Assembly (NCBI RefSeq): GCF_005222845.1
Contig: NZ_STFZ01000014.1
Span: forward strand, 171,784 to 235,783
Source: Rhizobium sp. FY34
Lineage (GTDB): Bacteria > Pseudomonadota > Alphaproteobacteria > Rhizobiales > Rhizobiaceae
Length of the DNA: 64,000 nt
Reading direction: 5' to 3'
The notes beneath the pieces were generated by a model. That model made no database searches and was not told where the DNA came from. It saw only the letters and a program-made list of their open reading frames with translations. Positions 8,909 to 55,485 of the stretch are shown piece after piece. Both the position numbers and the translations under genes were made by a program. The stretch's first letter is position 1, and each line of letters opens with the position of its first letter.

Positions 8909-10299
8909 GCGACAGATGCCTTTTCGCTGATCCATTGCTTGGTGCCGCCGCCGTTTGCCGCAAGCCATTCGGCACGGCGGGCAAAATGGGCCGGTGCCAT
9001 GGCATGGATATCGGCAATGATCGCCTTGATATCACCGGTCTTCAGAACCCCATCTTCGACGATAATCTGCCCGTCCACCATGGTCATGGCAACATCGCCA
9101 CCGCGCACGGCGTGGACGAGATTGTGCTGAAGGTTGAAATAGGGGCCTTGCCCGAACAGCGGCGTCATGCGCGGCGTATCGGTACGCACCGCAATGATAT
9201 CCGCCCGCTTGCCCACTTCCAGCGAGCCGATCTCGTCTTCAAGACCGATTGCCTTGGCGCCCAGACTGGTTGCCATGCGCAGGCACTGCCAGCTATCCAT
9301 GGCCGAGGCATCGTGGTGGCGCAGCTTGCCCAGAAGCGAGGCCGTCTTCATCTCCTCGAACATGTCGAAATTGTTGTTTTCCTTTTCACCATCGGTTCCG
9401 AGCCCGACGGGAATGCCAGCTGCCAGCATGTCGGCAATCGGGGCGATGCCGGAGGCAAGCTTCATGTTGGACACCGGATTATGGGCGACCGACACATTGT
9501 ATTTGGCAATCAGCTCGATTTCCGCATCATCCAGCCAGACCGCATGGGCAAGCATCGTGCGCGGCGCCTCGAAGAAACCGAGATCCTCCAGCACATGCAT
9601 CGGCCTCTTGCCGTAGGTTTCGAGGAACCCACCAACCTCCACCTCCGCTTCCGAGCAATGGGTGTGAAAGCCGGTGTTGTGGCGCTTGGCCATGGCAATC
9701 GCCCGGCTCTGGCCTGCCGCATCGGCGTAAAACAGATGTTCAAGGCCAACCCAGACATTGATGCGGCCATTGGCCTTGCGGTGCCATGTCTCGATCATCG
9801 CCTCGTTCATGTCGAGCGTGTCAAAATAATTGTAATCGGGATGTTCGCCGACATAGGGCACGGCCACGAGCCGGGTGCCGATCGCCTCGGCGGCCCGCGC
9901 GCTTCCATCCATGTAGCGCCACATGTCGACCACTGTCGTGGTGCCCGACAGCGCCGATTCCGCGTAACAGAGATAGGACGCCGCTTCTGCCTCGTGGGGC
10001 AGCAGTACGCGGTGCATCGGGTTGATGTGGATGGTCAGCCAATCCCAGACCGGCAGGTGTTCGGCCGTGCCGCGCAGGAAGCCGGAATGGGCGTGGGCAT
10101 TGATGAGGCCCGGCATCAGCAGCGCGTTATCGATCCTCTTGACGGGAAGCGTCGGATGGCTGGCCTTGACCACCTCCAGCGTGCCGACCGAGACAATGCG
10201 CCCATCCTCGATGGCGACGGCGCCTTCCGGAATGACGCTGTTTTGCGCATCCATGGTCAGAAGATAATCAGCCGTCAGGATCGTTGCGGTCGAGGTCAT
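8905..10299 (-). CDS. amidohydrolase-family deaminase (SsnA/TrzA type)
   Basis: This 464-residue metal-dependent hydrolase belongs to the AtzC/TrzA/SsnA branch, which deaminates cyclic amidines such as purines, pterins and adenosine derivatives. Metal and catalytic residues are His69 and His71 (NAHAHS), His214 and Glu217 (HTHCSEAE), His252 (LAHAVWL) and Asp303 (GLGTDGEKENNN). The C-terminal GSLEVGKRADIIAV returns to the composite beta domain. It overlaps the downstream oxygenase gene by four bases and follows the GMC oxidoreductase gene by 37 bases. 8-oxoguanine, an oxidised or alkylated purine, or isoxanthopterin are plausible substrates. The sequence alone does not decide. Confidence 0.88.
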   Translation of the reverse strand: MTSTATILTADYLLTMDAQNSVIPEGAVAIEDGRIVSVGTLEVVKASHPTLPVKRIDNALLMPGLINAHAHSGFLRGTAEHLPVWDWLTIHINPMHRVLLPHEAEAASYLCYAESALSGTTTVVDMWRYMDGSARAAEAIGTRLVAVPYVGEHPDYNYFDTLDMNEAMIETWHRKANGRINVWVGLEHLFYADAAGQSRAIAMAKRHNTGFHTHCSEAEVEVGGFLETYGKRPMHVLEDLGFFEAPRTMLAHAVWLDDAEIELIAKYNVSVAHNPVSNMKLASGIAPIADMLAAGIPVGLGTDGEKENNNFDMFEEMKTASLLGKLRHHDASAMDSWQCLRMATSLGAKAIGLEDEIGSLEVGKRADIIAVRTDTPRMTPLFGQGPYFNLQHNLVHAVRGGDVAMTMVDGQIIVEDGVLKTGDIKAIIADIHAMAPAHFARRAEWLAANGGGTKQWISEKASVA

Positions 10300-10336: not shown

Positions 10337-11905
10337 TCACACCGCCTCCAGAAGAAAGGCGGCGGCCCGCTCGCCGATCATCGTGACGGGCGCATGGGTG
10401 TTGCAGGTGGGAATGACGGGGATGACCGAGGCATCGGCAATCATCAATCCGTCGAGCCCGTGCACGGCAAGCCGGCTGTCGACCACGGCCATGTCGTCCC
10501 GACCCATTTTTGCGGTGCCGACCGGATGGAAGAAGGTGGAACAGCCGTTACGGGCAAATTCGCGCAAGGCCGCGCGCGACAACCGGCCTTTGGGGGCGGC
10601 AAACCCGTCAAACAGGGTGGAAAAGGCCGGGGTCTCCGCAAGCGCCATCACCGTCTCGATGGCACCCACAGTCGCCTCAAGATCGGATGGTTCGGCAAAA
10701 TAGTTCGGCTGGATGTCGAGCGGGCCGAATGGATCGGCTGACAGCAGGCGCAGGTCGCCGATGCTTTTCGAATGCATCAGCCCGGCGCCCAGCGAAAACA
10801 CCGTGCCCGACATATCGTGGAGCGCGCGAAGGCCGGGGGCCGCACTGTTTCCCTGCACGGGAAAGCTATGCACGTCCGGCTGCGCAAGGCCGGCTTGCGA
10901 TTTCCAGTTCATCATCGTGCCGCCGCCATTGTCGAGGACCTCGCCCAACGGCAGTTTCGAGCGACAGACGACGGCCTGCACCAGCGGATGATCCTGGAGA
11001 TTGCGCCCGACGCCCTTCAACGCATGGACCAGCGGAATGCCGAGCCGCTTCAGTTCGGCCGGATCGCCAATGCCCGACAGCATGAGGAGGCGCGGCGTAT
11101 CGAAGGTGCCGGCCGACAGCACCACCTGCGTTGTCGCACGGGTCTCGACAACGGTTCCATTCACCAGATGACGAAGACCGGTGCAGCGTCCCCTTTCGAG
11201 CGTCAGGCCGATGGCCTGCGAGCCGGTCAGCACCGTCAAGCGCGGGTGATCGAGGATCGGATAAAGATAGCCATGCGCCGAACTCCAGCGCCTGCCATCG
11301 GCGATGTTGAGATTGGAGGGGCAGGCGCCCTCGTTACTTTCCCCATTCGGATCGGCAATCACAGGAATGCCAAGATCGGCCGCGCCATCCAGCATCGCCT
11401 GCGCCACCGGATGCAGCTTTTTGCTGGTGGTGATTTTCAACGGCCCACCGGCCCCGCGCCAGAAGCTTTCGCCGCCTTCCCAATCCTCCGCCTTTTTGAA
11501 GAAAGGCAGCACATCACGGAAGGACCAGCCGTTACAGCCGGCCGCCTGCCAGGCGTTATAATCGTTCGGATGACCGCGATACCACATCATCGCATTGATC
11601 GCCGATGACCCACCGAGCGCCTTGCCGCGCGGAATGCCGATCGTGTGGCCGTTGACGCGGGGCGTTGGCGTATAATCATAACCCCAGTCCCAGCGGCCGC
11701 GCCCGAGCGGCACCCATTGGCGCGGATCCTCGATCTCTGCGATGCCAAACCCCGGTTCGCCCGCTTCCACCAGAAGCACGGTGGCATCCGTGCCATCGAT
11801 CAGGCGCCGCACCACCGGCAGCCCGCCGGAGCCCGCGCCGATGACGATATAGTCATAGGCTTTTTGCAGCGCGCGGTTCGGCAGGATCGGCGGGATGTCG
11901 GTCAT
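10337..11905 (-). CDS. GMC-family FAD oxidoreductase
   Basis: This 522-residue flavoprotein is of the choline dehydrogenase/alcohol dehydrogenase type. The N-terminal dinucleotide fold is DYIVIGAGSGGLPVVRRL. The GMC signature 1 is GKALGGSSAINAMMWYRG and signature 2 is SAGTFDTPRLLMLSGIG. The C-terminal substrate domain carries the conserved HPVGTAKMG and THAPVTMIGERAA with the catalytic His/His-Asn region. It oxidises a primary alcohol to an aldehyde, passing electrons to oxygen or a quinone/cytochrome. Next to an aldehyde dehydrogenase and an oxygenase it could process an alcohol released from the side chain of the substrate (inference). No signal peptide is seen. Confidence 0.9.
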   Translation of the reverse strand: MTDIPPILPNRALQKAYDYIVIGAGSGGLPVVRRLIDGTDATVLLVEAGEPGFGIAEIEDPRQWVPLGRGRWDWGYDYTPTPRVNGHTIGIPRGKALGGSSAINAMMWYRGHPNDYNAWQAAGCNGWSFRDVLPFFKKAEDWEGGESFWRGAGGPLKITTSKKLHPVAQAMLDGAADLGIPVIADPNGESNEGACPSNLNIADGRRWSSAHGYLYPILDHPRLTVLTGSQAIGLTLERGRCTGLRHLVNGTVVETRATTQVVLSAGTFDTPRLLMLSGIGDPAELKRLGIPLVHALKGVGRNLQDHPLVQAVVCRSKLPLGEVLDNGGGTMMNWKSQAGLAQPDVHSFPVQGNSAAPGLRALHDMSGTVFSLGAGLMHSKSIGDLRLLSADPFGPLDIQPNYFAEPSDLEATVGAIETVMALAETPAFSTLFDGFAAPKGRLSRAALREFARNGCSTFFHPVGTAKMGRDDMAVVDSRLAVHGLDGLMIADASVIPVIPTCNTHAPVTMIGERAAAFLLEAV

Positions 11906-11915
11906 TCCATCGGTC

Positions 11916-12524
11916 TCAATTGTGCTCGCTCGGCCCCATGATCACGATGCCTTCGGTCGCCTCCACATGGCGCACGAAAATATACTTGTCCTCGCGCCCG
12001 TCCGAATGCTTGCGCTTGATATCCGGCTGCACGGTGCCGGCCACCTTGGCCACGACCACGTAAGGAACGTCAGCGACAAGGCCCGCCGCGCAATGGGTCT
12101 CGAACTCTTCAAGCGTGCGCACTGTGTAGGCATGCTCGACGCCGGCACCACGGGCAATGGCGGCAATATCCACGCGCCCAAAGGCGGTATGCGTCGGCGG
12201 CCCGCCGATCGACTGGTAACATTCGTTGTCCCAGACGACGATGAAGAGGTTCTTCGGCTGCTCATTGCCAAGCGTGGCCAGAATGCCGAGGTTGAACATC
12301 ATGCCGCCATCGGTATCGAGCGAGATGATGCGCCGGTGCGGCAGGCCGGTTGCAAGACCAAAGGCCTGCGGCGTGACGCAACCGAGCTGCTGCTGGAAGA
12401 GGCTTGCCGCGCGCATGTGCGGGGCTGCATTGTACCATTCATCGACGGAGGCGCCGAGTGACAGGATCACCAGCTCGTCCTTCAGCCGTTCGGCCAGAAG
12501 TTTCATGCAGTCATAGCGCTTCAT
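11916..12524 (-). CDS. ThDP-dependent decarboxylase, beta (PP-domain) subunit
   Basis: This 202-residue C-terminal half of a two-subunit thiamine-diphosphate decarboxylase resembles sulfopyruvate decarboxylase ComE and the phosphonopyruvate decarboxylase C-half. The ThDP/Mg site follows the pattern DTDGGMMFNLGIL, with the distal Asn-containing part in VVWDNECYQS. The start overlaps the stop of the alpha subunit gene. Substrate is a 2-oxo acid, and the product is the aldehyde one carbon shorter, which could feed the aldehyde dehydrogenase at the end of the operon. The link to sulfonate or phosphonate metabolism is only by family; no other gene for those pathways is seen nearby. Confidence 0.82.
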   Translation of the reverse strand: MKRYDCMKLLAERLKDELVILSLGASVDEWYNAAPHMRAASLFQQQLGCVTPQAFGLATGLPHRRIISLDTDGGMMFNLGILATLGNEQPKNLFIVVWDNECYQSIGGPPTHTAFGRVDIAAIARGAGVEHAYTVRTLEEFETHCAAGLVADVPYVVVAKVAGTVQPDIKRKHSDGREDKYIFVRHVEATEGIVIMGPSEHN

Positions 12525-13021
12525 CGAACGATACTCCCGCCAAGGGCGATGGCCGAATGGTAATAGGCATTGTAGGACCAGTTATAGGCATCGACGATCG
12601 ACTGCTCGATCTCGTCTTCCTCGCGCACCACGCGGTAGGGAATGCGCAGCGCATTCAGCACCGGTTCCATGGTGATGCCGTGCGGAATGGCCCACCAGTT
12701 GTTTTCGCCCAATTCACCGCGATAGCTCATCAGCATGATGACGGGTATGCCTGCCCCCAGCCCCATGCGTGCCAGCGGCTCGACGGAGGCGCGCAGGCCG
12801 GAATTTTCCATGATGAGTGCTGCCCGCTTGCCCGAGAGAAAGATGCCGCCGCAGATGGCAGCACCTTCGCCCTCATTTGTAACGCGGATGGTGCGGATAT
12901 CCGGATCGGCATCGAGCGCCGGGTAAAGCTCCTTGAAGAGCGAGTCCGGCAGATAGCAGACGGTGCTGACGCCGGCTTTCTTCAGCCCGCGGATCACGGC
13001 ATCGACGGATGATGGCTTCAT
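12521..13021 (-). CDS. ThDP-dependent decarboxylase, alpha (PYR-domain) subunit
   Basis: This 166-residue N-terminal half of the split decarboxylase is ComD-like. The pyrimidine-ring-activating Glu lies in TNEGEGAAICGG, and LPDSLFKELYP and GLGAGIPVIMLMSYRGELGE are typical of sulfopyruvate/phosphonopyruvate decarboxylases. The two halves overlap by 4 bases and should form an alpha2beta2-type enzyme. The 93 bases upstream (13022-13114), between this gene and the LysR-type regulator gene, could hold a LysR-controlled promoter for the 13021-2909 operon. Confidence 0.82.
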   Translation of the reverse strand: MKPSSVDAVIRGLKKAGVSTVCYLPDSLFKELYPALDADPDIRTIRVTNEGEGAAICGGIFLSGKRAALIMENSGLRASVEPLARMGLGAGIPVIMLMSYRGELGENNWWAIPHGITMEPVLNALRIPYRVVREEDEIEQSIVDAYNWSYNAYYHSAIALGGSIVR

Positions 13022-13114: not shown

Positions 13115-14077
13115 TCAAGGTGCCTTTCCCAATCCCTGCCCACCCGTCTGCCCCGATGGCTGCGTCAGCTGCTCAACCGATTGTTCCAGCAGCCGGCCGA
13201 GTGCGCTTGCCGCATCCGACATTTCCTTGGTCGAGCGGGACAGCAGCATCAGCTTGCGGTTGGGAAGCCGGGTGTCGGTGAGCGGCACGAAGACAAGAAG
13301 ACCCTGTGCCAGCTCCTGTTCCACGCCGACGCGGGTTTGCAGCACAAGCCCGAGATCTCTCAGCGCGAGTTCAACCATCAGGCCGATGGAATTGGTGCGC
13401 GAGCGGCGCGACAGATCGAGTAGAGAGCGGTTCAGCGCATCTTCCACAGAGGCGCCGAGTGTCAGGCTCTGATCGGAAAGGATGACCCGCCGGTTGGCGA
13501 GATCGAAGAGTTTCAGCTCGGTGCGCGCTGCCAGGTCGCTTCCCGGCAGCGCCAGAACCCCGATCGGCAGCGAGACGCTGGCAATGCGCCGCACGGTGCG
13601 CGGCACGCGCACGTCAAACAGCACGGCGAGATCGCATTCGCCTTCGGCCACCGCATTGGCGGCCTCCTGCGAGGCCATCACCTTGATATCGACGGTGATG
13701 GCCGGATGGCGCGCCCAGAACGCGGCAAGGGCTGCCGGAAGCAGGCCGCGCGCCACGCTCTCCACCACGGCAATAGAGACTGTTCCGCGATGCAGGCCAT
13801 GCAGGTCATTGATCTCCGCGCAGGCGCGGGCAAGCTCCGAAAGCGAGGCCCGCGCGTGATAGAGCAGAAGCTCGCCGGCGCTGGTCAGCTTCAGGCGCTG
13901 GCGCACCCGCTCAAACAGCGGCGTGCCCAGTTCGTCTTCGAGCTGTCGCAGGATCCGGCTGACCGAAGACGGCGCTACATTCAGCGACAGCGCCGCCTGG
14001 CGGATCGATCCCAGCCGCGCCACCAGCTGGAAATAATGGATGCGGGTGGCAACCAGACCCAGCCGGTAGGCGTCCAT
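13115..14077 (-). CDS. LysR-family transcriptional regulator
   Basis: This 320-residue regulator has an N-terminal winged helix-turn-helix (HYFQLVARLGSIRQAALSL then SVSRILRQLEDELGTPLFER) and a C-terminal periplasmic-binding-type effector domain. I start at the ATG at 14077, which overlaps the stop of adenine deaminase as ATGA. A longer frame from 14218 would lie inside ade. It is co-directional with its neighbours rather than divergent, and sits between ade and the decarboxylase genes. It is the only local regulator of this island, so it probably responds to the pathway substrate. The C-terminus is Gly/Gln-rich and of low complexity. Confidence 0.88.
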   Translation of the reverse strand: MDAYRLGLVATRIHYFQLVARLGSIRQAALSLNVAPSSVSRILRQLEDELGTPLFERVRQRLKLTSAGELLLYHARASLSELARACAEINDLHGLHRGTVSIAVVESVARGLLPAALAAFWARHPAITVDIKVMASQEAANAVAEGECDLAVLFDVRVPRTVRRIASVSLPIGVLALPGSDLAARTELKLFDLANRRVILSDQSLTLGASVEDALNRSLLDLSRRSRTNSIGLMVELALRDLGLVLQTRVGVEQELAQGLLVFVPLTDTRLPNRKLMLLSRSTKEMSDAASALGRLLEQSVEQLTQPSGQTGGQGLGKAP

Positions 14078-15876
14078 CAAGCCGCCTCGAACGGCGGGAC
14101 GATGGCCATCTGGGGCACGGTGACAAGGCCCTTGTCGGTGATGCGGATTTCCGGGATGACCGACAGCGGAATGAGGTTGAAGCCCATATAGGGAATGGTG
14201 CAGCCGGCCTTTTCCCACTCCACCTTCAGGGCCTGCACTTCCGCCGAGACCTCATGCACGCGCTTGTCGGACATCAGGCCCGCGACCGGCAGCGGCACCA
14301 TGGCCGTCACCTTGCCATCCTGCACCACGCAGACCCCGCCCTGATGCGCCTCGATGGCGCGCAGCGCCACCTGCATGTCGGCCTCATTGGTGCCAGCGAT
14401 GATGATGTTGTGGCTGTCATGGCCAACGGACGAGGCGACCGCGCCGCTTTTCAGCGCAAAATTCGACAGAAGCGCATGTGCCACATTGCCATCCGATTTC
14501 CCATGGCGCTCGATGACCGTGACGAAGCAAAGCCCGTGACGGGAGAAATGGGTTTCCCAGTCATTGGCCGGCTCCAGCGTGATTTTCTCGTGGCCAAGGA
14601 TGATGCCCGGCAGTTCGGTGCGGATGGTATTGGCAATCACCGTGCCGCCCGGCAGATCCGGGGTCAGCTTTACGTCCTTCGGCAGCTTGACCGTGTGATA
14701 GGCCGCCTCCGGATAACGCCAGCGGTTGGAGAGGGCGGCATCGAGCGCCGGCGTGATGGCCTTCTGGTCCACCACCAGTTCGCCGCCATACCAGGTGCTG
14801 ACCGGGTTCAGATCATCATCGAGCAGCACCAGATCGGCGCGCCGGCCACCGCCCATGCCGCCGATATCGCCTTCCATGCCAAAACGGGTCGCGCCGTGGA
14901 GCGAGCCCATCGCCCAGGCCTGTTCCGGCGTCATGCCGGCGCGGCGGGCTTCGCGCACCACCCAGTCGAGGCCGAAGGCAAGAAGATCTTCGGCGTCGCG
15001 GTCATCGGTGCAGACGGCAATGCGCTTGTGCGAGGCACCAAGCTCGGTGACGGTGCGGATCGCATCCGGCAGCGAATGCCAGGGCGTCGTCGGTGGTCCG
15101 CCGCGCAGGAACAGCCAGATGCCGGCTTCCAGAAGGTCATCGGCAATATCCCGGTCGATGGCCTCGTGCGTATCCGTGACGCCGGACGCGGCATAGGCGG
15201 AAACAAATTCGCGGCCATAGACATGGCCAGAGACCGGCCTGCCGCGTGAAAGCGCTGCGGCCAGTATGGCGTGGGCGCGCTCGTCACCCATGGTGACGGG
15301 CACGAAATCCATCTTTTCCCCCAGCGCCACGGCTTCCGGCCATTTGTCGAACAGAGCGGCGATCTTCTCTGCCGTCAGATCACCGCCTGCCGTTTCAAGA
15401 TCGGGCGATGTTGCCGGCACGGTGGAGGGGACCGTGAGGAAAATCGACAGCGGCGCATGCCGGGCATCCTCCAGCATCGCCTCGACGCCCGCCACATCCA
15501 TGACATTGCCGATCTCGTGGCTATCGCAGAAGATCGTCGTCGTGCCGTTGAGAAGGGCCGCTTCCGCATAGGCGCAGGCCGTGACCATGCTGGATTCGAT
15601 ATGGATATGCGGGTCAACCAGCCCCGGCGCGATAATGCCGCCTCGCGCATCATAACGCTTCGCGCTTGTGCTTTTCGACGTGCCGGACGGTTTGACGGCC
15701 GCAATCCGGCCACCGGCGATCCAGACTTCTCGCTCCGGCAGGATGCGCTCCGAATAGGTGGAGAGCACGCGTGCCCCGGTGATCACCAGATCCGGGCTTG
15801 CACGTCCGGAGGCGACATCGGCCAACCGCCGCGTCATGCTAGCAAGCGGGGCGACGGAAAATCGGGTGAGCGCCAT
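14077..15876 (-). CDS. ade: adenine deaminase
   Basis: This 599-residue amidohydrolase converts adenine to hypoxanthine and ammonia. The family pattern of bacterial Ade is clear: LITGARVL-type N-terminal beta domain, [13 protein letters not shown] (His90, His92), [36 protein letters not shown] and the C-terminal [10 protein letters not shown]. The start at 15876 is preceded by AGGAG nine bases upstream; a longer frame from 15933 lacks that support. It sits between the GST-like gene and the LysR gene on the minus strand. In the island it would deaminate adenine released from imported or dealkylated purines. Confidence 0.93.
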
Positions 15877-15929: not shown

Positions 15930-16562
15930 TCAATGATAATCTGGAATGCCCGGCATGGTGCGGAACCCGGGCAGGATGCGGAAGCGCCGCAGCCAGCGGC
16001 GAAGGGCGGGAAACTCGTCATGGTCGATGCCATAATCGCGGCTGAGCGCAAAGCTCGGCAGAAGCGACAGATCGGCAATAGTCGGGGTGTCTGCCGCAAA
16101 CCACTCAAAGCCTTCGATATGGCGCAGGACCATGTGATCATCCATGATGCGCAGCGCCTGGCGCGCCTCTCTCGTCAGGGCCTCCAAATCGCCGGCAGTG
16201 CCGAATACCGCCACGCGGCGGGCCTCGATGGCGCAGGCGAGTGCCGTGGCGGAAAAGAACGTCCACTGCATGACGCGTGAAAAGGTGGCGGGTTCAAGCG
16301 GCAGCCAGACGCCGGCCGCATTATGGGCACGCGACAGATGGGCAAGGATCGCCTGCGTACCATAGAGCACAAGGTCTCCATCCTTGAGAATGGGAAGGCT
16401 GCCAAGCGGGTTGAGCGCCCGCATCGCCGGCCCCTTTTCCTCATGACCGGGCACCATGTCGATGGCCACGATCTCATGGGCAATGCCGAGGAAGGAGAGC
16501 ATCAGCCGCACGCGGTAACAGTTCTCGTCGAGATCGTGATTGTAGAGGGTGATTTCAGACAT
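15930..16562 (-). CDS. glutathione S-transferase-like protein
   Basis: This 210-residue GST-fold protein has a thioredoxin-like N-terminal domain ([19 protein letters not shown], cis-Pro region [18 protein letters not shown]) and a helical C-terminal domain ([13 protein letters not shown]). The start ATG sits in a TGATG with the stop of the Rieske gene, so the two are translationally coupled. In the caffeine N7-demethylase of Pseudomonas a GST-like protein, NdmE, is a structural partner of the Rieske-less NdmC. The same pairing of a GST-like gene, a free Rieske protein and Rieske-less catalytic subunits here suggests a similar scaffold role. An ordinary glutathione-conjugating or maleylpyruvate-isomerase-like enzyme is the alternative. 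Confidence 0.85.
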
Positions 16563-17260
16563 CACGCCACCTCCGCAACGGTTACAGGCGCTTCAAGGGC
16601 AAGCCGCAAAGCCTGCGCCCAGCGTGCAAGGGCTGCAATCAGATCCACCGACCCCTCGTCGGCCAGGATATGTAGCCCGATCTTTTGCGGACCGATCACC
16701 TGAACGGCAATCGACAGGCTGAGCGCGCCGGCCTCAAGGGTCCAGGCATGCGGGGTAACGACCTGCAGCCGGGCGGGATACGTCTCGTCTTTCCCGACAG
16801 GCAGTTGCGTCTGTTTCAGGATGGCAAGAGCGTGGGCCGCGGAACAATCTGCATAAAGGCTGCGCACCGGAAGGTTTGTGCCCATAGTGGGAAGCGGATC
16901 GGCAGCCTGCGCAGCGGTTGCGAGCCGCGTCCAGATCACGCCGCCGGCTTCTTCGACGGCATAGGTGGCGATCTTGATCGTCTTTGGGACGTCGAGATCG
17001 GGATGGGCGGGAATATGGCGACATTGTCCGGCCGTATCATAGGACCAGCCGTGATAGAGGCAGGCAATATGGTCGCCGCGCACAAAGCCGAAACTCATGC
17101 GCATGCCGCGATGCGGACAGCGGTCTTCCCACACATGCGCCACGCCCTTGGCATCGCGCCAGACAACCAGTTCAGCCCCCTCGACAACGGCGCCAGCCGA
17201 CGTGCCCGGCTCGATGGAGGCCGAGAGCGCCACCGGCACCCATGCTGCTTCACTCGACAT
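16562..17260 (-). CDS. stand-alone Rieske [2Fe-2S] protein with C-terminal extension
   Basis: This 232-residue protein has a complete Rieske motif near the N-terminus: Cys48-Pro-His50 (RCPHRGMRM) and Cys67-x2-His70 (ACLYHGWSYD), with 16 residues between. The rest of a Rieske domain follows (CRHIPAHPDLDVPKTIK, then AVEEAGGVIWTR). Residues from about 115 lack any mononuclear-iron motif and do not match the oxygenase catalytic domain. This is therefore an electron-transfer subunit, not an oxygenase alpha subunit. It is coupled to the GST-like gene downstream. It is the obvious source of the cluster missing from the two catalytic subunits at 8042 and 22896. No NAD(P)H:flavin reductase is visible in the window to reduce it. 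Confidence 0.88.
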   Translation of the reverse strand: MSSEAAWVPVALSASIEPGTSAGAVVEGAELVVWRDAKGVAHVWEDRCPHRGMRMSFGFVRGDHIACLYHGWSYDTAGQCRHIPAHPDLDVPKTIKIATYAVEEAGGVIWTRLATAAQAADPLPTMGTNLPVRSLYADCSAAHALAILKQTQLPVGKDETYPARLQVVTPHAWTLEAGALSLSIAVQVIGPQKIGLHILADEGSVDLIAALARWAQALRLALEAPVTVAEVA

Positions 17261-17302: not shown

Positions 17303-17539
17303 TCAGGCATCGCTGCGCGTCACATCCATCACGATGCAGTCTGTTGGGCCAAGGCTGCAGGCCATTTCAAACATGTCGACCAGTGCCTCCTGCCCGCAAA
17401 CCGACAGGCTGACGCGTGTGCCGCTGCAGGCATTGACGTCAAGATCGATATCGAGCCTGTCGGCCCGGTGGCGGGCAAAGCCGAGAAAGCTGTCGCAATC
17501 GAACGCGCCCTCGAACAGGAAATGCACCGGCGGGTTCAT
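17303..17539 (-). CDS. small acylphosphatase-fold protein, probably non-catalytic
   Basis: This 78-residue protein aligns over most of its length with acylphosphatases. Similarities are a first strand FEGAFDCDSFLGFARHRADR in place of the usual VQGVGFR loop and helix, and a second half LSVCGQEALVDMFEMAC, then LGPTDCIVMDV. The catalytic Arg of the VGFR loop is replaced (Leu by my alignment), so phosphatase activity is doubtful. An Asn in the later loop (DVNACSG) may be kept. It is the first gene of the minus-strand run, 42 bases upstream of the Rieske gene, facing the sigma-54 promoter region. A structural or ligand-sensing role for the oxygenase is possible, with no direct evidence. Confidence 0.65.
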   Translation of the reverse strand: MNPPVHFLFEGAFDCDSFLGFARHRADRLDIDLDVNACSGTRVSLSVCGQEALVDMFEMACSLGPTDCIVMDVTRSDA

Positions 17540-18053: not shown

Positions 18054-19166
18054 ATGATCGACCTGCGTAGTCTTTCCCGTCGCGGCTTCCTGAACATGGC
18101 GGCGGCCGGCAGTGCCTCGCTTGCGCTGCCCGGCCTTGTGCGCTCTGCCTCTGCCGCAACAGCACTTCCTGCCGTCAACGAGAAGAATGCCGTGATCGGC
18201 TTTGGCCATGTCGGCCCGGTCACCGACGAGGGCTGGACCTGGTCGCACCATCAGGGCGTTCTGGCGGTCAAGGAAAAATTCCCCAACCTCAAGAAGGTGC
18301 TTGAGGTGGAAAACGTGCCCTATTCGGCCGATGCCACGCGCACCTATCGCCAGTTCGTGTCAGAAGGCGCGAACATGATTTTTGACACGTCCTCTACCGG
18401 TGACTTCCTGCACGAAGTGGTGCGCCGGGCCAAGGATACGGCCTTCATGGAATGCAACGGCCATGTGCTGATGGACAATCTCGGCTGGTATTACCTGGCG
18501 CACTGGTATCCGACCTATGTGCTGGGCGTTGCCGCCGGCCATCTGTCAAAGAGCGGCAAGCTCGGTTATGTCGCCTCCTTCCCGGTTGCCTCCGTCTATA
18601 CTTCCACCAATGCCTTCCTGATGGGCGCGCGCACAGTAAACCCCAGCGCCACCTGCCAGACCATCACGATCAATTCCTGGTTCGATCCGCAGGCGGCGGC
18701 CCAGGCCGGCACGGCGCTGATCGACAATGGCTGCGATTTCCTGTTCGGCATCATGGATGAGGCGGCCTATCTGCAGGTGGCCGAAAAACGCGGTGTCTGG
18801 GCCGCCATGTGGAATACCGACATTCGCCGCTATGGCCCCAGTTCCTATGTCTCGTCGATTATCATCGACTTCAAGGAATATTACGTCGAACAGGTGCGCA
18901 AGCGGCTCGCCGGCGAATGGACACCAACCGAAAGCCTGTTTGCCATGGGTGCCGGCGTCGACCGTGATGCCTGGGGCGAAAAGGTTCCGGCAGATGTCGG
19001 CAAGGCTGCTGACGCGGTGCGCACAAAAATCCTCGGCGGCTGGTCGCCCTTCGTCGGCGAACTGAAGGATTCCAAGGGGGCGGTGCGTTTGGCAAAGGGC
19101 CAGAAGATGTCGGAAATGGATCTTTACAACTGGGATTGGTCCGTCGAAGGCGTCACCGGCCTCTGA
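18054..19166 (+). CDS. BMP-family ABC transporter substrate-binding protein
   Basis: This 370-residue periplasmic binding protein is of the Bmp/PnrA/Med family, which usually binds nucleosides or purine-type ligands. The N-terminus carries a Tat-type signal, SRRGFLNMAAAG with the twin Arg at 9-10, a hydrophobic stretch and an AxA-like site near SASAA. The mature part has GFGHVGPVTDEGW and GKLGYVASFPVASVYTSTNAF typical of the family. It is the first gene behind the sigma-54 promoter; an AAGGGG stands before the ATG. Folding before export (Tat) is somewhat unusual for this family. Ligand is inferred to be a purine or substituted purine from the neighbours. Confidence 0.9.
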   Translation: MIDLRSLSRRGFLNMAAAGSASLALPGLVRSASAATALPAVNEKNAVIGFGHVGPVTDEGWTWSHHQGVLAVKEKFPNLKKVLEVENVPYSADATRTYRQFVSEGANMIFDTSSTGDFLHEVVRRAKDTAFMECNGHVLMDNLGWYYLAHWYPTYVLGVAAGHLSKSGKLGYVASFPVASVYTSTNAFLMGARTVNPSATCQTITINSWFDPQAAAQAGTALIDNGCDFLFGIMDEAAYLQVAEKRGVWAAMWNTDIRRYGPSSYVSSIIIDFKEYYVEQVRKRLAGEWTPTESLFAMGAGVDRDAWGEKVPADVGKAADAVRTKILGGWSPFVGELKDSKGAVRLAKGQKMSEMDLYNWDWSVEGVTGL

Positions 19167-19192
19167 CCGCACCGGGATAACCGACGACATGC

Positions 19193-19220
19193 GGTATCGG
19201 GCGCTGACGTGCCCGATACC
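19193..19220 (+). terminator. intra-operon hairpin after the binding-protein gene
   Basis: GGTATCGGGC and GCCCGATACC form a perfect 10-bp stem around an 8-base loop, 27 bases after the binding-protein stop and 33 before the ATPase start. There is no T-run after it. Such hairpins in ABC transporter operons usually protect or attenuate the message so that the binding protein is made in excess. Confidence 0.6.
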
Positions 19221-19252
19221 TTCCGCCAGCCTCTCATGCCGGTAGCGCCCGA

Positions 19253-20836
19253 ATGACTGAACCAAGCCATCGATACGTGGTGCCGACAGGTGCAGCACCG
19301 CTCGTGCAGCTGAAGGGCATCGCCAAGTATTTCCCCGGCGTGATTGCCAACCAGGATGTCGACCTGGAGGTGATGCCGGGCGAGATCCACGCACTGCTTG
19401 GTGAAAACGGCGCGGGCAAATCCACGCTGATGAATATTCTGACCGGCATCTACCAGCCTGATGCCGGCGAAATCATCATTGATGGCTACGCATGCCAGTT
19501 TGCCTCGCCGGTTCAGGCCATCGCGGCCGGCATTGGCATGGTCCACCAGCACTTCAAGCTGGTCAACGCCTTCACCGTTGCCGAAAACATTCATCTCGGC
19601 TGGAGCGAGACGCCAAGGCGTGCCTCTGCCCCTGCCCTGGAAGAACGCACGGCGGCACTTGCGCAGAAGTTCAATCTCCAGGTCAAGCCATCGGCGCGCA
19701 TCACCGAGCTTTCGACCGGTGAACAGCAGCGGGTGGAAATCCTGCGGGTTCTGGCGCGCAAGGCTCGCGTGCTCATCCTCGACGAACCAACCGCCGTTCT
19801 GACGCCGGCCGAAGCACGCGAACTGTTCAAGGCATTGCGCGATTTCGTGTCTACCGGCAATGCCGTGATCTTCATCTCGCACAAGCTGGACGAGGTGCTT
19901 GAAATCTCAGACCGCATCACGATCCTACGCGGCGGCAGGAAGGCGGGCACGGAACTTGCGGCCGATTGCACGCCGGCAAAACTTGCCCGCCTCATGGTCG
20001 GTCGCGATATCGTTCTGGCAGACATGCGCGCCCGCCCCCCAGGGGCGGCTGCCGTGTCGTCCTCGCCGGTGCTGCGTCTGCGCGACGTCAGCGTGTTGAA
20101 CGATAATGGACATACGGCTCTGCATGGCATCTCACTCGATGTCCGCGCCGGCGAAATTCTGGGCATTGCAGGTGTTGCCGGAAATGGGCAACGCGAACTG
20201 TCGCAAGTGCTGACTGGAACGCGGCCGGCCGCAACCGGCGTGATCGAAATCGATGGACACGCCATTGCCCATGCCAACGCTGCCGATTTCGTGCGCCGCG
20301 GCATCGGCCATATCCCGGAAGACCGGCTGCACAGCGGGCTGGCGCCGGGCCTGTCGATTACCGCCAATGCCGTGATGCGCGAATACGCCAAGCCGCCCGT
20401 CACCATTGCCGGCATTTTTCGCCCGCGTGCCGCAAAGGCTCTGGCCCGCCAGATCGCAAGCGTTGCGGACGTGGCGATCCCCGATTTTGCCATGCCGATC
20501 CGCAACCTGTCGGGCGGCAACCAGCAGAGGCTGGTCGCGCGGCGCGAAATGCGCATCGCCTCCAAAATTCTCGTTGCCGCCTATCCAAGCCGCGGGCTCG
20601 ACGTCGGCGCGATCAACACCATGCTGCGATACATCGTGGACCTGCGCAATGCAGGCGCCGGTATCGTGCTGATTTCGGAGGAACTGGAGGAATTGCTCAA
20701 CCTGTCAGACCGCATCGCCGTGCTTTACGAGGGCCGCATCATGGGCGTGCTTGACAATGACCGGGTGGATATCGACGAGATTGGCCTGATGATGGGCGGG
20801 CGCCTGCGGGGCGAAAAGGGTGCAGCCCATGGCTGA
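19253..20836 (+). CDS. ABC transporter ATPase, double domain (BMP/nucleoside type)
   Basis: This 527-residue protein holds two tandem ABC domains, as in NupO/YufO and sugar CUT2 systems. The first is canonical: GENGAGKST Walker A, STGEQQRVEIL signature, VLILDEPTA Walker B. The second is degenerate in the usual way for the family: GVAGNGQREL in place of Walker A, LSGGNQQR signature, ILVAAYPSRGLDVG in place of Walker B. It energises import with the two permeases that follow. Its stop lies 8 bases inside the first permease gene. Confidence 0.93.
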   Translation: MTEPSHRYVVPTGAAPLVQLKGIAKYFPGVIANQDVDLEVMPGEIHALLGENGAGKSTLMNILTGIYQPDAGEIIIDGYACQFASPVQAIAAGIGMVHQHFKLVNAFTVAENIHLGWSETPRRASAPALEERTAALAQKFNLQVKPSARITELSTGEQQRVEILRVLARKARVLILDEPTAVLTPAEARELFKALRDFVSTGNAVIFISHKLDEVLEISDRITILRGGRKAGTELAADCTPAKLARLMVGRDIVLADMRARPPGAAAVSSSPVLRLRDVSVLNDNGHTALHGISLDVRAGEILGIAGVAGNGQRELSQVLTGTRPAATGVIEIDGHAIAHANAADFVRRGIGHIPEDRLHSGLAPGLSITANAVMREYAKPPVTIAGIFRPRAAKALARQIASVADVAIPDFAMPIRNLSGGNQQRLVARREMRIASKILVAAYPSRGLDVGAINTMLRYIVDLRNAGAGIVLISEELEELLNLSDRIAVLYEGRIMGVLDNDRVDIDEIGLMMGGRLRGEKGAAHG

Positions 20837-21875
20837 TTTTCGTCTGCAACGCCTGCCCTCCACAACGCCAGCCGCAGCGCTTGGCGCGCGCATCCTGGCA
20901 ATCGCTCTTGCGCTTGTCATTGCCGGTGTCATCCTGGCCTTCGTCGGAAAAAACCCGCTGGCGCTTGGCCTGCAGGTCGTCACCTCCTCACTCGGATCAA
21001 GCTTCGGCCTGGAAGATCTCGGGCTTCTGGTCATTCCGCTGATCCTCACCGGACTTTCGGTGACGGTTGCCCAGCAGATCGGCGCGTGGAATATCGGCGC
21101 GGAGGGGCAGTTTTATGCAGGCGCCTTTGCCGCCAGCGCCGTCGGCCTTTTTGCGCCGCTGTCGGGAGGCTGGAGCCTTGTTGGCATGGGTGTCGCAGGC
21201 GCATTCGGCGGGCTCGTCTGGATCCTCATTCCCGCCCTTGCGCGTGCCTATGCCAATGTCAACGAGCTGATCACCACGCTGCTGCTCAATTTCGTCGCCA
21301 TCCTGCTCGTCTATTATGTCTCGACCGACGCCTGGCGCGAACGCGGCGGTGTTGCCAATTCCGCCACACCGCGCATCAAAGCCGAAATACCTGAATTCTG
21401 GGGACTGGTACATTGGGGCCTGCCGATTGCCGTCCTGCTTGCCCTGGCGATGGCCGGCCTCCTTGCCTTTACCCGCTGGGGCTATGAGGTACGGCTCATC
21501 GGTTCCAATCCGGCTGCGGGCAAATATCTGGGCATTGCGGCGCGCCGCCACCTGATCACCGTCATGCTGATATCGGGCGCTATTGCCGGCCTAGCTGGCA
21601 TGCTGGAAATTGCCGGCACGGTGCATCGCCTGCAAGGCGGCATTTCCAACAATTACGGCTATCTTGGCATCATGGTTGCGGTTCTGGCGCGCGGCTCCTC
21701 GATCGGTGTCATCTTTGCCGCAGCCCTGATGGCCTTCATCCTCAATTCGGGCATCATCCTGCAGACGCAGGGACTGACCACCTCCACCGTGCTGGCGATT
21801 ACCGGTCTCATCCTCTTCCTGACGGCCATTGGCGACGAGCTGTCGCATTACCGTGTCGTGCGCGACAAAAGCTGA
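20829..21875 (+). CDS. ABC transporter permease (BMP/nucleoside type) 1
   Basis: This inner-membrane permease of about 348 residues is of the YufP/NupP class, with roughly eight to ten hydrophobic segments and the family pattern IGAWNIGAEGQFYAGAFAA and TRWGYEVRLIGSNPAAGKYLGI. I prefer the ATG at 20829 (MADFRLQ), which overlaps the ATPase stop; a GTG at 20820 is possible. It pairs with the permease at 21890. Confidence 0.92.
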   Translation: MADFRLQRLPSTTPAAALGARILAIALALVIAGVILAFVGKNPLALGLQVVTSSLGSSFGLEDLGLLVIPLILTGLSVTVAQQIGAWNIGAEGQFYAGAFAASAVGLFAPLSGGWSLVGMGVAGAFGGLVWILIPALARAYANVNELITTLLLNFVAILLVYYVSTDAWRERGGVANSATPRIKAEIPEFWGLVHWGLPIAVLLALAMAGLLAFTRWGYEVRLIGSNPAAGKYLGIAARRHLITVMLISGAIAGLAGMLEIAGTVHRLQGGISNNYGYLGIMVAVLARGSSIGVIFAAALMAFILNSGIILQTQGLTTSTVLAITGLILFLTAIGDELSHYRVVRDKS

Positions 21876-21889
21876 AAGGAACCCGTGCG

Positions 21890-22825
21890 ATGGATCTCTT
21901 GACCGGACTTCTGACGACAGCCTTTCTTGCCGGCGGCGTGCTGGCGCTGGCGGCCATGGGCGAGGTGCTGGCCGAACGGGTTGGTGTCGTCAATCTGGGT
22001 GCCGAAGGGCTGATTGCCATGGGCGCCATCACGGCGGTTGCCACCGTCAGCGCTTACCCCTCGCCGCTGGTCGGTTTTTTGGCGGCCCTGTGCGTCGGCG
22101 CCCTGTTCGGCGCGCTGTTTGCCCTTGCTACCGTCACCATCCGGGCAAACCAGGTGCTGTGTGGCCTTGCCCTGACGCTGATCGGCACGGGCCTTGCCCA
22201 GACGATCGGCAAATCCTATTCCGGCATGCCGGTTGCAGCGACATTTCAGGGTGTGGAAATGCCGCTCCTGTCAAAACTGCCGGTCATCGGCCCGGCCTTC
22301 TTCAGCCAGAACATTCTGGTCTATCTCATCTACATCATCCTGCCGTTCGGCCTTTCCTACCTGATGTTTCGCACCCGCCACGGCATGAACATGCGTGCGG
22401 TGGGCGAAAACCCGGCGGCGGCCGATGCTGCGGGCATTCCGGTTACCCTCTTTCGCTTCGGTTATGTCTGCGCAGGTGCCGCCCTTGCCGCCGGTGCCGG
22501 CGCCTATCTGGTGCTTGCCTTCGTGCCGGCCTGGTCGGATGGGGTTGTGGCCGGGCGCGGATGGATTGCCGTGGCTCTCGTCATCTTTGCCGGGTACCGG
22601 CCCATTCCGGCCGCCCTTTCCGGCCTGCTCTTCGGTTTCATCACGGCGCTCGGTTTTGTCGGGCAGGCGCGCGGCTGGCCGATTGCGCCGGCCTTCCTGT
22701 CCATGCTGCCCTATGCCGGAACCATCGCCTTCATCATCGTGCCCGTCATCGCCTGGCAGCGCATGCGCCGGCTGATGGCGGCACCGGCAGCCCTTGGGCA
22801 ACCCTATTTCCGCAGCGTCCGGTGA
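21890..22825 (+). CDS. ABC transporter permease (BMP/nucleoside type) 2
   Basis: This 311-residue second permease, YufQ/NupQ class, has about eight membrane segments and the family pattern RVGVVNLGAEGLIAMGA and TRHGMNMRAVGENPAAADAAGI. It starts 14 bases after the first permease. The complete importer is therefore binding protein, double ATPase and two permeases in one operon. Confidence 0.92.
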   Translation: MDLLTGLLTTAFLAGGVLALAAMGEVLAERVGVVNLGAEGLIAMGAITAVATVSAYPSPLVGFLAALCVGALFGALFALATVTIRANQVLCGLALTLIGTGLAQTIGKSYSGMPVAATFQGVEMPLLSKLPVIGPAFFSQNILVYLIYIILPFGLSYLMFRTRHGMNMRAVGENPAAADAAGIPVTLFRFGYVCAGAALAAGAGAYLVLAFVPAWSDGVVAGRGWIAVALVIFAGYRPIPAALSGLLFGFITALGFVGQARGWPIAPAFLSMLPYAGTIAFIIVPVIAWQRMRRLMAAPAALGQPYFRSVR

Positions 22826-22895: not shown

Positions 22896-23750
22896 ATGAA
22901 GGCGACAGACCGGGCGTCACTCGATCAGTGGTATCCAATCGAGACGGAGGCCGAAATCCCCTACGGCACCTCGGCCAACCGGCTGCTCGGCACCGATCTC
23001 GTGGTGACCCGCACCGCGCAAGGCGAAGTGACCGTTCTTGCCGAAGGACAAGGCCTGCCGCTTCCGATCAAGCGCCGTTATGGCTATGTCTGGACCACGC
23101 TCGGCACGCCGGAAAAGGACATCTTTCCTATTGTGGAAGCAGACGAGCCGGATCGACGTTATGTGCCCTGCGGTGCCGTGTCGGTAAAGGCATCCGGCCT
23201 GCGCATCATCGAGAACTTTCTCGACATGGCGCATTTCCCCTTCGTCCACACCGATATTCTCGGCTCCGAACCGCATACGCAGGTGGAGCAGTACAATGTC
23301 GAAATCCGCCGCGATGTGGATGAAGTCTGGGCAACCAATTGCCAGTTCTTCCAGCCGCAGGCTGCCCTTTCGGCAAAAGACGGCCTGATGACCCAATATA
23401 TCTACCGGGTGATGACGCCGTTCTCGACGCTGCTTTACAAGACCTGCCCGAATTCCGCCAACCGCTGGGATGTAATCTGCCTCTTCGTACAGCCGCTCGA
23501 TCCGGGTCGTTGCCGCGCCCATCCGGTGATGTACCTGATCGACGACCAGTCGACCACGGCCTCGTTGATCCAGTTCCAGCAGCTGATCTTTCTGCAGGAC
23601 CGCATTATTCTGGAAAACCAGCGCCCGGTTCTCCTGCCGATGGAAGCGCGATCCGAAATTCCGACGCGGGCAGATGCAAGCTCGATTGCCTATCGTCGCT
23701 GGCTGAAGGAAAAGGGCGTGACCTACGGCACATCGCTGCAGGCGGCCTGA
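22896..23750 (+). CDS. Rieske-type oxygenase catalytic subunit lacking the Rieske domain (paralog 2)
   Basis: This 284-residue paralog of the protein at 8042 shares an identical 21-residue stretch over the metal site and a second 14-residue identical block (EIRRDVDEVWATNC). It lacks any Rieske motif. Iron ligands are in ENFLDMAHFPFVH (Asn107, Asp110, His113, His118) and FLQDRIILENQRP (Asp235). The N-terminal about 60 residues differ most between the two and may set substrate choice. It follows the importer genes by 70 bases, sits before guanine deaminase, and is under the sigma-54 promoter rather than in the minus arm. Like paralog 1 it needs an external Rieske donor. By analogy to NdmA/B/C, two paralogs could act on different N-positions or different purines. 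Confidence 0.85.
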   Translation: MKATDRASLDQWYPIETEAEIPYGTSANRLLGTDLVVTRTAQGEVTVLAEGQGLPLPIKRRYGYVWTTLGTPEKDIFPIVEADEPDRRYVPCGAVSVKASGLRIIENFLDMAHFPFVHTDILGSEPHTQVEQYNVEIRRDVDEVWATNCQFFQPQAALSAKDGLMTQYIYRVMTPFSTLLYKTCPNSANRWDVICLFVQPLDPGRCRAHPVMYLIDDQSTTASLIQFQQLIFLQDRIILENQRPVLLPMEARSEIPTRADASSIAYRRWLKEKGVTYGTSLQAA

Positions 23751-23817
23751 TGTTTCTCCACGATGATTGCGCCAGCGCTTGCGTTCTGAGGGCCGCAGAT
23801 TTGACGGGAAGATCTGC

Positions 23818-25182
23818 ATGCGCGATCTGAGGAACAAGGTGCTGCTGGCGAGCGGCTTTCACGCGCCGGTGCCGGGCGAGATCGAGGTTTTGAAGGACAG
23901 CCTCATTGTGCTCGATGGCGAAGGCATCATCCAATCTGTTCTTCGTCCGGGTGATGAGGCCTATGGGCTGCAAAAATCCGATGCCGAGCGGCAGGAACGC
24001 CTGTGCCGGCTGCCAGCGGAACATAGTCTGCTGCCGGGATTTGTCGATTGCCATGTACATGCGCCACAATATCCGCAGCTAGGCACGGCACTCGACGTGC
24101 CGCTCGAAACCTGGCTGCACACCTACACCTTTCCGCTCGAGGCACGTTACACCGATCTTGCCTTTGCGCGACGCGCCTATCGCCTGCTGGTCGAGGATCT
24201 CCTGGCAAACGGCACAACGACGGCGCTTTATTTCGCCACCATCCATCAGGATGCGACGCGGCTGCTGGTCGATATCTGCCTGGAGAAAGGCCAGCGCGCC
24301 CTGATCGGCAAGGTCGCGATGGACAACCCGGACGAATGCCCGGACTATTACCGCGATGCTTCGCCCGATGCGGCGATCAAGGGCACAAAGGCGCTGATCG
24401 ATTATGTGCGCGCGCATCCGGACAATACCGCCGGCACCGTTTTGCCGGTGGTAACACCGCGTTTCATCCCGGCCTGCACGGATGCAACGCTTCAAGGTCT
24501 GGGTGAGCTTGCAACCGACTGCGGCTGCCATGTGCAGACCCATTGCTCGGAAAGTGACTGGGAGCATGGTTATGTGCTGTCCCGCCACGGCATGACCGAT
24601 ACGATGAGCCTCGATCGTTTCGGGCTTCTGACCCGGCGCAGCATGCTGGCCCATTCAAACCTTTTGACGCCTGACGACATGGAGCAGATCAAGGTGCGCC
24701 AAGCGGCGGTTGCCCATTGCCCGCTGTCAAATGCCTATTTTGCCGGCGCGGTGTTTCCGCTGCGGGCCGCACTCGAAAAGGGTCTGCATGTCGGGCTTGG
24801 CAGCGATATTTCCGGGGGGCCGAGCGCTTCGCTGCTGGAAAATATGCGAGCGGCCATCCTTGTCTCGCGAATGCTGGAAAGCGGCGTTGATGGCAATCTT
24901 CCACCCCATCTGAGGGCAAGCGGGGCAAAGGCCCGCATCGATTTTCGCCATGCTTTCCACGTGGCAACGGCTGGCGGCGGCAAGGCGCTGGATCTGCCGG
25001 TCGGCCAGTTCACGCCGGGCTATCGGTTCGACGCGATCACCATCGATCCGCAAGCGAATGGCGGCACGTTGCGCCTGTTCGACGGCGACGAGGGCAGCGA
25101 AGCGGCCTTGCAGAAAATCATTTTCACAGCCTCCCGCGCCAATATTGCCGCAGTTTACGTGGATGGCCGCAAGGTGGCGTAA
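23818..25182 (+). CDS. guaD: guanine deaminase
   Basis: This 454-residue amidohydrolase converts guanine to xanthine and ammonia. The diagnostic motif PGFVDCHVHAPQYPQLG carries His79 and His81. Further metal ligands are in QTHCSES and LAHSNLL, and the catalytic Asp in GLGSDISGGPS. I start at the ATG at 23818, preceded by GGGAAG; a longer frame from 23767 lacks a good ribosome site. It is the last gene of the plus arm. Its product xanthine could go to the molybdenum hydroxylase of the minus arm or to a xanthine dehydrogenase elsewhere. Confidence 0.93.
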   Translation: MRDLRNKVLLASGFHAPVPGEIEVLKDSLIVLDGEGIIQSVLRPGDEAYGLQKSDAERQERLCRLPAEHSLLPGFVDCHVHAPQYPQLGTALDVPLETWLHTYTFPLEARYTDLAFARRAYRLLVEDLLANGTTTALYFATIHQDATRLLVDICLEKGQRALIGKVAMDNPDECPDYYRDASPDAAIKGTKALIDYVRAHPDNTAGTVLPVVTPRFIPACTDATLQGLGELATDCGCHVQTHCSESDWEHGYVLSRHGMTDTMSLDRFGLLTRRSMLAHSNLLTPDDMEQIKVRQAAVAHCPLSNAYFAGAVFPLRAALEKGLHVGLGSDISGGPSASLLENMRAAILVSRMLESGVDGNLPPHLRASGAKARIDFRHAFHVATAGGGKALDLPVGQFTPGYRFDAITIDPQANGGTLRLFDGDEGSEAALQKIIFTASRANIAAVYVDGRKVA

Positions 25183-48319: not shown

Positions 48320-48323
48320 TTGG

Positions 48324-52415: not shown

Positions 52416-52416
52416 G

Positions 52417-53573
<1,157 letters not shown>

Positions 53574-53574
53574 G

Positions 53575-54372: not shown

Positions 54373-54443
54373 GATATTCTCCTCCCCAACATTTATTGCA
54401 TCCGTAAAATGGTTAGGTAAAATGACATTTGAGACCCTCAACA

Positions 54444-54459
54444 TTAACCGCAGAGTTAT
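54444..54459 (-). promoter_or_regulatory. PcaQ operator in the pcaD-pcaQ gap
   Basis: On the minus strand ATAACT-CTGC-GGTTAA matches the PcaQ site known from Sinorhizobium, which as I recall is ATAACC-N4-GGTTAA, with one mismatch. It lies about 72 bases upstream of the pcaD start and 3 bases from the pcaQ start. That suits activation of pcaD and repression or autoregulation of pcaQ. Confidence 0.7.
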
Positions 54460-54462
54460 GAT

Positions 54463-55386: not shown

Positions 55387-55426
55387 TGATGGTTTGAAGC
55401 CGTTGACGCGCGCTTCCGCCAAATGC

Positions 55427-55466: not shown

Positions 55467-55485
55467 CAGCCGCAAAGGCGGGTGA

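Follow-up and report, generated by a model that had tools for sequence, protein, structure and literature searches.

The locus described here likely encodes a split Rieske oxygenase, in which a stand-alone Rieske protein (RIE) and Rieske-less oxygenases (RO1 and RO2) would complement each other in trans, with a GST-like protein and an acylphosphatase-like protein (ACP) as partners and a purine as substrate. It is found in a stretch of 64,000 nucleotides from Rhizobium sp. FY34, which we refer to as the window. The RIE module is real and conserved, and is more than a coupled gene pair. Its genes and their neighbors are located as follows, with the basis of each assignment in parentheses.

4436..8040, minus strand: XDHs and XDHL, xanthine-dehydrogenase-family proteins (2Fe-2S; fused FAD and molybdopterin) (Pfam for XDHL, NCBIfam below cut-off, R. 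tumorigenes neighbors)
8042..8908, minus strand: RO1, second Rieske-less oxygenase, sharing the motifs of RO2 (PF19112, alignment, motif scan)
8905..10299, minus strand: AH1, TRZ/ATZ / deaminase-type amidohydrolase adjoining RO1 (PF01979; NCBIfam relatives, none above the NCBIfam cut-off)
10337..13021, minus strand: GMC oxidoreductase and two-part TPP decarboxylase-like pair, between AH1 and LysR/ADE (Pfam, NCBIfam below cut-off)
14077..15876, minus strand: ADE, adenine-deaminase-like amidohydrolase downstream of GST (match to 3nqb)
15930..16562, minus strand: GST-like protein (210 aa), its start overlapping the RIE stop (Pfam GST_N/GST_C, alignment A3, co-conservation)
16560..16574, minus strand: GGAGG at 16574-16570 and TGATG stop/start overlap at 16564-16560 (sequence)
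16562..17260, minus strand: RIE, stand-alone Rieske protein (232 aa) (Pfam PF00355, alignment, AlphaFold2 model, fold matches)
17303..17539, minus strand: ACP, acylphosphatase-like protein (78 aa), 42 bases upstream of RIE (family Pfam matches, profile alignment, alignment columns)
18054..22825, plus strand: BMP-family binding protein, ATPase and two permeases, divergent from ACP-RIE-GST (R. tumorigenes annotation, conserved neighbors)
22896..23750, plus strand: RO2, Rieske-less oxygenase (284 aa) (PF19112, alignment, hhalign to RIE, AlphaFold2, SxtT fold match, motif scan)
23767..25182, plus strand: GUD, guanine-deaminase-like amidohydrolase downstream of RO2 (R. tumorigenes guaD at the equal position)

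On the minus strand the genes run in the order ACP, RIE, GST. The earlier note on this DNA had reported that the Rieske stop and the GST-like start share bases, and this is what the sequence contains: the TGA of RIE occupies 16564-16562 and the ATG of GST occupies 16562-16560, with one base (in TGATG) common to both genes. The GGAGG lies just upstream of this ATG, and an alternative GTG start is present one codon upstream of it. We examined 120 loci for this feature and scored 119 (no start was found in one); in 112 of these the Rieske stop overlaps the next start, whether of GST or of an oxygenase, the overlap being 1 or 4 bases. By our own count, overlaps of 1-4 bases also occur in 5 of 23 adjacent same-strand pairs in an annotated stretch of R. 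tumorigenes, the Rieske-GST pair among them, and therefore overlap alone is weak evidence. Its conservation is stronger evidence, though the loci are related. The earlier note had argued from the coupling for a stoichiometric complex; coupling by itself is no proof of one.

Complementary metal motifs in RIE and the RO proteins

Residues 7-90 of RIE match the Rieske family PF00355 with 80.7 bits (cut-off 20.3). The Rieske domain extends over residues ~7-116, which match residues 12-123 of SxtT by sequence, and carries the ligands C48-x-H50 ... C67-x2-H70; the motif C-x-H...C-x2-H was found in all 30 RIE family members scanned. The remainder of the protein, from about residue 117 to residue 232, matches no Pfam family at E 0.1, and the strict iron motif [DE]xxHxxxxH occurs in none of the 30 members (a looser pattern matches one). 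This agrees with the description in the earlier note of an extra C-terminal region without metal motifs. The suggestion made there that the region is a docking module needs to be recast: on its predicted fold it is a degenerate oxygenase catalytic domain, which may still dock.

The fold was examined on an AlphaFold2 model of RIE built with 30 aligned sequences (mean pLDDT 92.3; 90 or above in the ten-residue blocks from 121 to 220, lower in 221-232). The C-terminal part is predicted to form a strand, a helix, further strands and a long helix. Foldseek aligned the model, over residues 1-232, to the whole Rieske oxygenases SxtT, GxtA, NdmA and dicamba monooxygenase. With VIA-align, 227 of 232 residues aligned to dicamba monooxygenase (Z 21.1, rmsd 3.0) and 228 to NdmA (Z 20.2, rmsd 3.6), and the Rieske ferredoxin 2qpz aligned over 102 residues only (Z 16.4, rmsd 1.8). 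Because the whole model aligns to whole oxygenases, the C-terminal region is placed on their catalytic domain. The predicted model thus has the alpha-subunit fold, a Rieske sandwich plus a helix-grip domain, and by predicted fold only we regard residues ~120-232 as a helix-grip-like, shrunken catalytic domain without iron ligands. Comparing profiles of the C-terminal parts gave no significant match (probability 4.9), and second-domain HMM matches of the region to full-length oxygenases were noise, with E far above 1. A sequence-based proof of descent was therefore abandoned, and since the C-terminal sequence profiles alone miss the relation, we infer homology of this region from the fold. Within the C-terminal domain H197 and R219 are invariant (30/30) and E223 is present in 29 of 30 sequences.

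Shorter variants of RIE were also observed. In two loci (L016 in G067 and L021 in G021) the C-terminal domain is ~45 residues shorter, giving RIE lengths of 189 and 187 aa, and it looks like a domain that has not finished shrinking; the best-matching oxygenase within 10 kb in these genomes is RO1 rather than RO2 (L045, L050). On a plasmid of Lichenihabitans psoromatis (L205, 10001-10980), the annotated Rieske gene codes for only 136 aa, and a GST-like gene and short frames come after it. An IS3 transposase is nearby, and the locus is possibly a decaying copy.

RO1 and RO2 are 58% identical, and both score above the cut-off of PF19112, the vanillate O-demethylase C-terminal family. RO2 retains D110-x2-H113-x4-H118 and D235, the latter being the putative third iron ligand, and the loops of the Rieske cluster are deleted. 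In the motif scan, DxxHxxxxH was present in all 23 RO sequences and C-x-H in none of them; seven contain C-x2-H without C-x-H. The RO N-terminus aligns in hhalign with the base of the RIE Rieske domain, the cluster part being gapped out (E 4.6e-8), and the N-terminal halves of the RO and RIE profiles alone align with E 5.8e-9. The AlphaFold2 model of RO2 (pLDDT 85.0) has the Rieske-oxygenase alpha-subunit fold: 271 of its 284 residues align to SxtT (Z 30.4, rmsd 2.1) and 259 to NdmA (Z 24.2, rmsd 2.8). By sequence, residues 49-279 of RO2 match residues 100-333 of SxtT.

The Rieske and iron motifs are thus found on separate chains, RIE and RO, and in control full-length oxygenases both lie in one frame (20/20). 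On the basis of the motifs, the profile alignment and the model folds, RIE and RO resemble two halves of a single kind of enzyme that complement each other, and the pair looks like a Rieske oxygenase that has been split into two reciprocally degenerate subunits. In Rieske oxygenases, as described in PMC12445004, electrons pass from the Rieske cluster to the iron of the neighboring subunit over about 12 A. As RIE and RO divide the two metal sites between them, we expect this interface to lie between the two unlike subunits.

GST-like and acylphosphatase-like partners across genomes

When 397 genomes of the order were searched with RIE, 40 of them, in addition to the genome of the window, had matches with E up to 3.0e-33, the next match being at 1.1e-25. 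The 40 order loci were taken with up to about 10 kb of flank on each side where the contig allowed. Additionally, we used a named set comprising the best 80 of at least 559 relatives, mostly Rhizobiaceae but including Celeribacter, Pacificibacter, Gemmobacter, Kaistia and others; its loci are not independent. Profile construction drew on the window together with at most 29 of the 40 order loci, so that these match by construction; the 80 named loci, 21 loci with fused Rieske-reductases and 20 control loci contributed nothing to the profiles. Since order loci contributed to the profiles, the named genomes and the controls are the fairer test of co-conservation.

A gene of the GST family lies near RIE in 40/40 order loci and 80/80 named loci (the best 80 of at least 559), and a Rieske-less RO in 40/40 and 79/80, the sole named locus without one being a 7.3-kb contig (L105). 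The earlier note had proposed a gene-neighbor search, in which consistent pairing of this Rieske family with a GST-like gene and Rieske-less oxygenases would support its idea; both pairings were found, and none of the 20 control loci, which carry full-length Rieske oxygenases from the order genome set, has a GST or ACP of these families. ACP, a third partner gene overlooked in the earlier note, is near RIE in 38/40 order loci and in all of the best 80 named loci. The two unfused loci without it are L069 and L072, the latter with a separate reductase beside RIE.

Two gene orders occur: ACP-RIE-GST with RO elsewhere, which is the window type, and ACP-RIE-RO-GST. Adjacency of RIE and RO is not constant, and in the window RO1 and RO2 lie about 8 and 6 kb from RIE. 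Two or more RO genes accompany one strong RIE match in 46 of 120 loci, and therefore RO1 and RO2 probably share RIE as their electron donor. In one locus (L046 in G336, 11396-12076) the RO frame beside RIE begins at the catalytic part and is 226 aa long, without the vestigial Rieske base present in the others and with no usual in-frame start codon ahead; this is either a further deletion or a broken frame.

The GST-like protein scores above the cut-offs of five Pfam GST_N/GST_C models and has both the N- and C-terminal GST domains. In the numbering of alignment A3, the window copy has D11 and G67-T68 at the positions that we take to be the catalytic residue and the gamma-glutamyl-binding pair, respectively. 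A3 holds 24 of 30 GSTs: the six cut shortest at locus ends were omitted, and several of those retained are also cut. A catalytic Ser, Cys or Tyr together with a glutathione-binding Ser or Thr is found in 8 of these 24 family members, and Ser at the catalytic position in 10. Because the glutathione-site residues are not conserved in the family, the GST-like protein is probably non-catalytic, although catalysis may persist in those members with Ser at the catalytic position.

The frame upstream of RIE had been considered as a ferredoxin, a candidate that was dropped, its family being acylphosphatase-like. PF00708 is matched by 20 of 28 ACP family members (the window copy itself gives no match at E 0.1), and the ACP profile aligns to solved acylphosphatases over nearly its whole length, 1v3z among them. 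The family differs from acylphosphatases in the lack of a conserved Arg in column 19 and Asn in column 36, presumably the catalytic residues: each is kept in 1/28, the Asn in the window copy. ACP is therefore probably non-catalytic as well.

Fused relatives and known systems

The closest known system is NdmC-NdmD-NdmE, the 7-methylxanthine N7-demethylase complex of Pseudomonas putida CBB5. As reviewed in PMC4408171, it consists of NdmC, an oxygenase without a Rieske cluster; NdmD, a reductase that carries an additional Rieske cluster; and NdmE, a GST-like protein that is required. PMC4408171, PMC13237722 and PMC8055839 describe NdmE as a structural protein without catalytic activity; in PMC13237722 the structural role is a proposal, and the structure of the NdmCDE complex is given as unsolved. 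The likeness to NdmE drawn in the earlier note is therefore apt. Both systems combine a Rieske-less non-heme-iron oxygenase, a Rieske centre on another polypeptide, a GST-like partner and a purine pathway. They differ in that the Rieske unit here is a separate 232-aa protein with no reductase domain, whereas that of NdmD is fused to the flavin/NAD/2Fe-2S reductase.

Weaker RIE matches with long frames in the order search are NdmD-like. The fused and control loci were chosen by open-frame size among the matches listed, and their class was confirmed afterwards; L171, taken with the fused loci, proved to be a full-length oxygenase and was omitted from both sets. In all 21 NdmD-like frames the RIE profile matches near its full length, C-terminal domain included, and is followed in the same frame by a reductase. 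NdmD-like proteins of the order thus carry the two-domain RIE unit (21/21; the P. putida protein was outside this comparison). An RO was found in all 21 fused loci and a GST in 20 (none in L167). The ACP gene, by contrast, accompanies the unfused form (38/40 order loci and 80/80 of the best 80 of at least 559 named relatives) and none of the 21 fused loci. Of the 80 named loci, 20 entered the trees; the 150-residue minimum length probably accounts for the loss of two RIE rows. A single branch (100/100) separates unfused from fused RIE. The unfused RO group together (96), and the fused RO do not form one group in the visible part of the tree. Based on this grouping, the two architectures look old and stable, and ACP appears to go with the unfused one.

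The RIE module is therefore new as an unfused variant of the NdmCDE kind with ACP as a fourth partner. Earlier work may already have noticed some of these loci, since the review (PMC4408171) reports that the 2013 study of NdmCDE noted homologous clusters mainly in Sinorhizobium and Mesorhizobium. In searches of open-licence papers, none of the matches listed describes the unfused module in its title or abstract, which is weak evidence of absence, and in the plasmid records examined it is annotated only generically.

Other known proteins also resemble its parts. The predicted folds of RIE and RO match NdmA/NdmB, SxtT/GxtA and dicamba monooxygenase from end to end, but those enzymes hold both metal sites in one chain, with one per polypeptide here. 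Rieske ferredoxins such as 2qpz and BphA3 are, like RIE, small Rieske electron carriers and match its N-terminal domain, but are without a C-terminal domain of the RIE type. Stand-alone Rieske ferredoxins serve oxygenases that have their own Rieske cluster.

Purine genes, electron supply and a working model

The genes around the module point to purine metabolism. Residues 16-359 of ADE match 3nqb, 'Adenine deaminase 2' (E 1.3e-69), and an aldehyde dehydrogenase is also part of the purine cluster of the window. Several cluster genes were named from matching gene order in R. tumorigenes, in which BMP family ABC transporter genes are annotated in the same order. Among the named loci (best 80 of at least 559) ADE is a neighbor in 49/80 and GUD, by tblastn, in 53/80; each is a neighbor in 8/40 order loci. 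An amidohydrolase of the GUD, AH1 or ADE type is near in 63/80 and 27/40 loci (tblastn), and a BMP gene in 62/80 and 27/40. Judged from this context, the substrate of the module is probably a substituted (N-alkylated) purine. In some loci, for example L117, L121 and L149, the purine-gene probes of the window found nothing within 10 kb, and so the assignment may not hold for all members.

A plasmid of Qingshengfaniella alkalisoli (L206, 10901-24329) carries a set of ACP, RIE, RO, GST, amidohydrolase and BMP/ABC genes beside genes for a YcaQ-family DNA glycosylase and allantoinase, the allantoinase lying about 10 kb from the module. The plasmid is typed as mobilizable; the module could therefore travel, and it sits there with purine breakdown genes. 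Other frames of the window were assigned by eye. Transposase-like frames lie at the edge of the purine cluster (429-2402), two of which (1222-1869 and 1935-2402) are perhaps one transposase split in two, a broken insertion element. Frames resembling a cellulose synthase operon (40911-49367) and protocatechuate/4-hydroxybenzoate catabolism (51798-57937) are unrelated to the Rieske module.

PF00175, the reductase family, has six matches in the genome and none in the window. A separate reductase adjoins the module in 3/40 order loci and in 0/80 named loci (best 80 of at least 559). Inspection by eye of the PF00175 matches outside the window showed a C-terminal 2Fe-2S motif in two, L078 (314 aa) and L075 (360 aa), which are no more than candidates for the reductase partner of RIE. 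Taken together, these observations suggest that the reductase is probably unlinked.

Alternative readings concern each part of the module. RIE could be no more than a soluble ferredoxin of the Rieske type, carrying electrons from a reductase to RO1 and RO2, with its C-terminal part a decoration and no shared oxygenase-like oligomer. The good match of 2qpz to its N-terminal domain would suit such a carrier, as would a C-terminal sequence that is poorly conserved and, in L016 and L021, truncated. We consider this unlikely, however, since the RIE model aligns to whole oxygenases with its C-terminal domain included, the fusions retain the two-domain profile, and H197 and R219 do not vary. Moreover, RO is without Rieske ligands, so the RIE cluster would have to replace the Rieske centre of the oxygenase rather than feed it. 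It is very unlikely that the GST-like protein is simply a glutathione transferase for detoxification, for example of formaldehyde or another reactive product, whose gene happens to share the operon. Its scores above the Pfam GST cut-offs and the Ser found in 10/24 relatives would allow for such an enzyme, but the window copy has Asp at the catalytic position and Gly-Thr at the pair, both criteria hold in only 8/24 members, and occurrence beside RIE/RO in 120/120 loci (80 of them the best of at least 559), against 0/20 for full-length oxygenases, is unexpected for a general detoxifier.

The substrate is a separate question. The module might act on a non-purine such as some other N-heterocycle, in which case the purine genes around it in the window would be a neighborhood specific to that lineage. 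Several loci consist only of RO2-ACP-RIE-GST with no probed purine genes within 10 kb, and the nearest solved relatives of RO include the saxitoxin-binding SxtT and GxtA. This reading seems rather doubtful to us in view of how often the amidohydrolase and BMP genes recur near the module, and of the purine N-demethylases NdmA and NdmB, which are also close structural relatives of RO.

We therefore return to the split oxygenase acting on a purine and propose how it might work. RIE would contribute the [2Fe-2S] Rieske domain, its shrunken catalytic domain being free of iron; RO1 and RO2 would contribute the mononuclear iron site, their Rieske base having no cluster. The two kinds of chain would complement each other in trans across the Rieske-to-iron subunit interface of ordinary oxygenases. 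Electrons would pass from NADH through an unlinked reductase of the phthalate-dioxygenase-reductase type to RIE, and from there to RO1 or RO2, which would oxidise a substituted purine base, most likely by N-dealkylation. What is formed would then pass to the deaminases and xanthine-dehydrogenase-type enzymes of the linked genes. Similarly to NdmE, the GST-like protein may be a non-catalytic assembly partner. ACP, occurring only with the unfused form among the sampled loci, would be a fourth, pseudo-enzymatic partner, possibly an adaptor for docking of the reductase. A bolder and speculative extension, which we regard as possible rather than likely, is a mixed ring (e.g. alpha3-alpha'3) in which all electrons cross between unlike chains, one RIE serves interchangeable RO, and the dead ACP replaces the tether between reductase and Rieske unit in NdmD.

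In ordinary Rieske oxygenases both metal sites lie in one chain, so that a strictly inter-subunit electron path is hard to isolate. The split system, with one site per polypeptide, makes this path and the role of NdmE-like proteins testable by mixing parts. The module is widespread in alphaproteobacteria, being present in 40 other genomes of the 397 in the order sample and in at least 80 named ones. It suggests that purine oxygenases can be modular, with one electron donor and several catalytic subunits, and the locus offers a natural test of Rieske-oxygenase assembly in which complementary halves are encoded separately.
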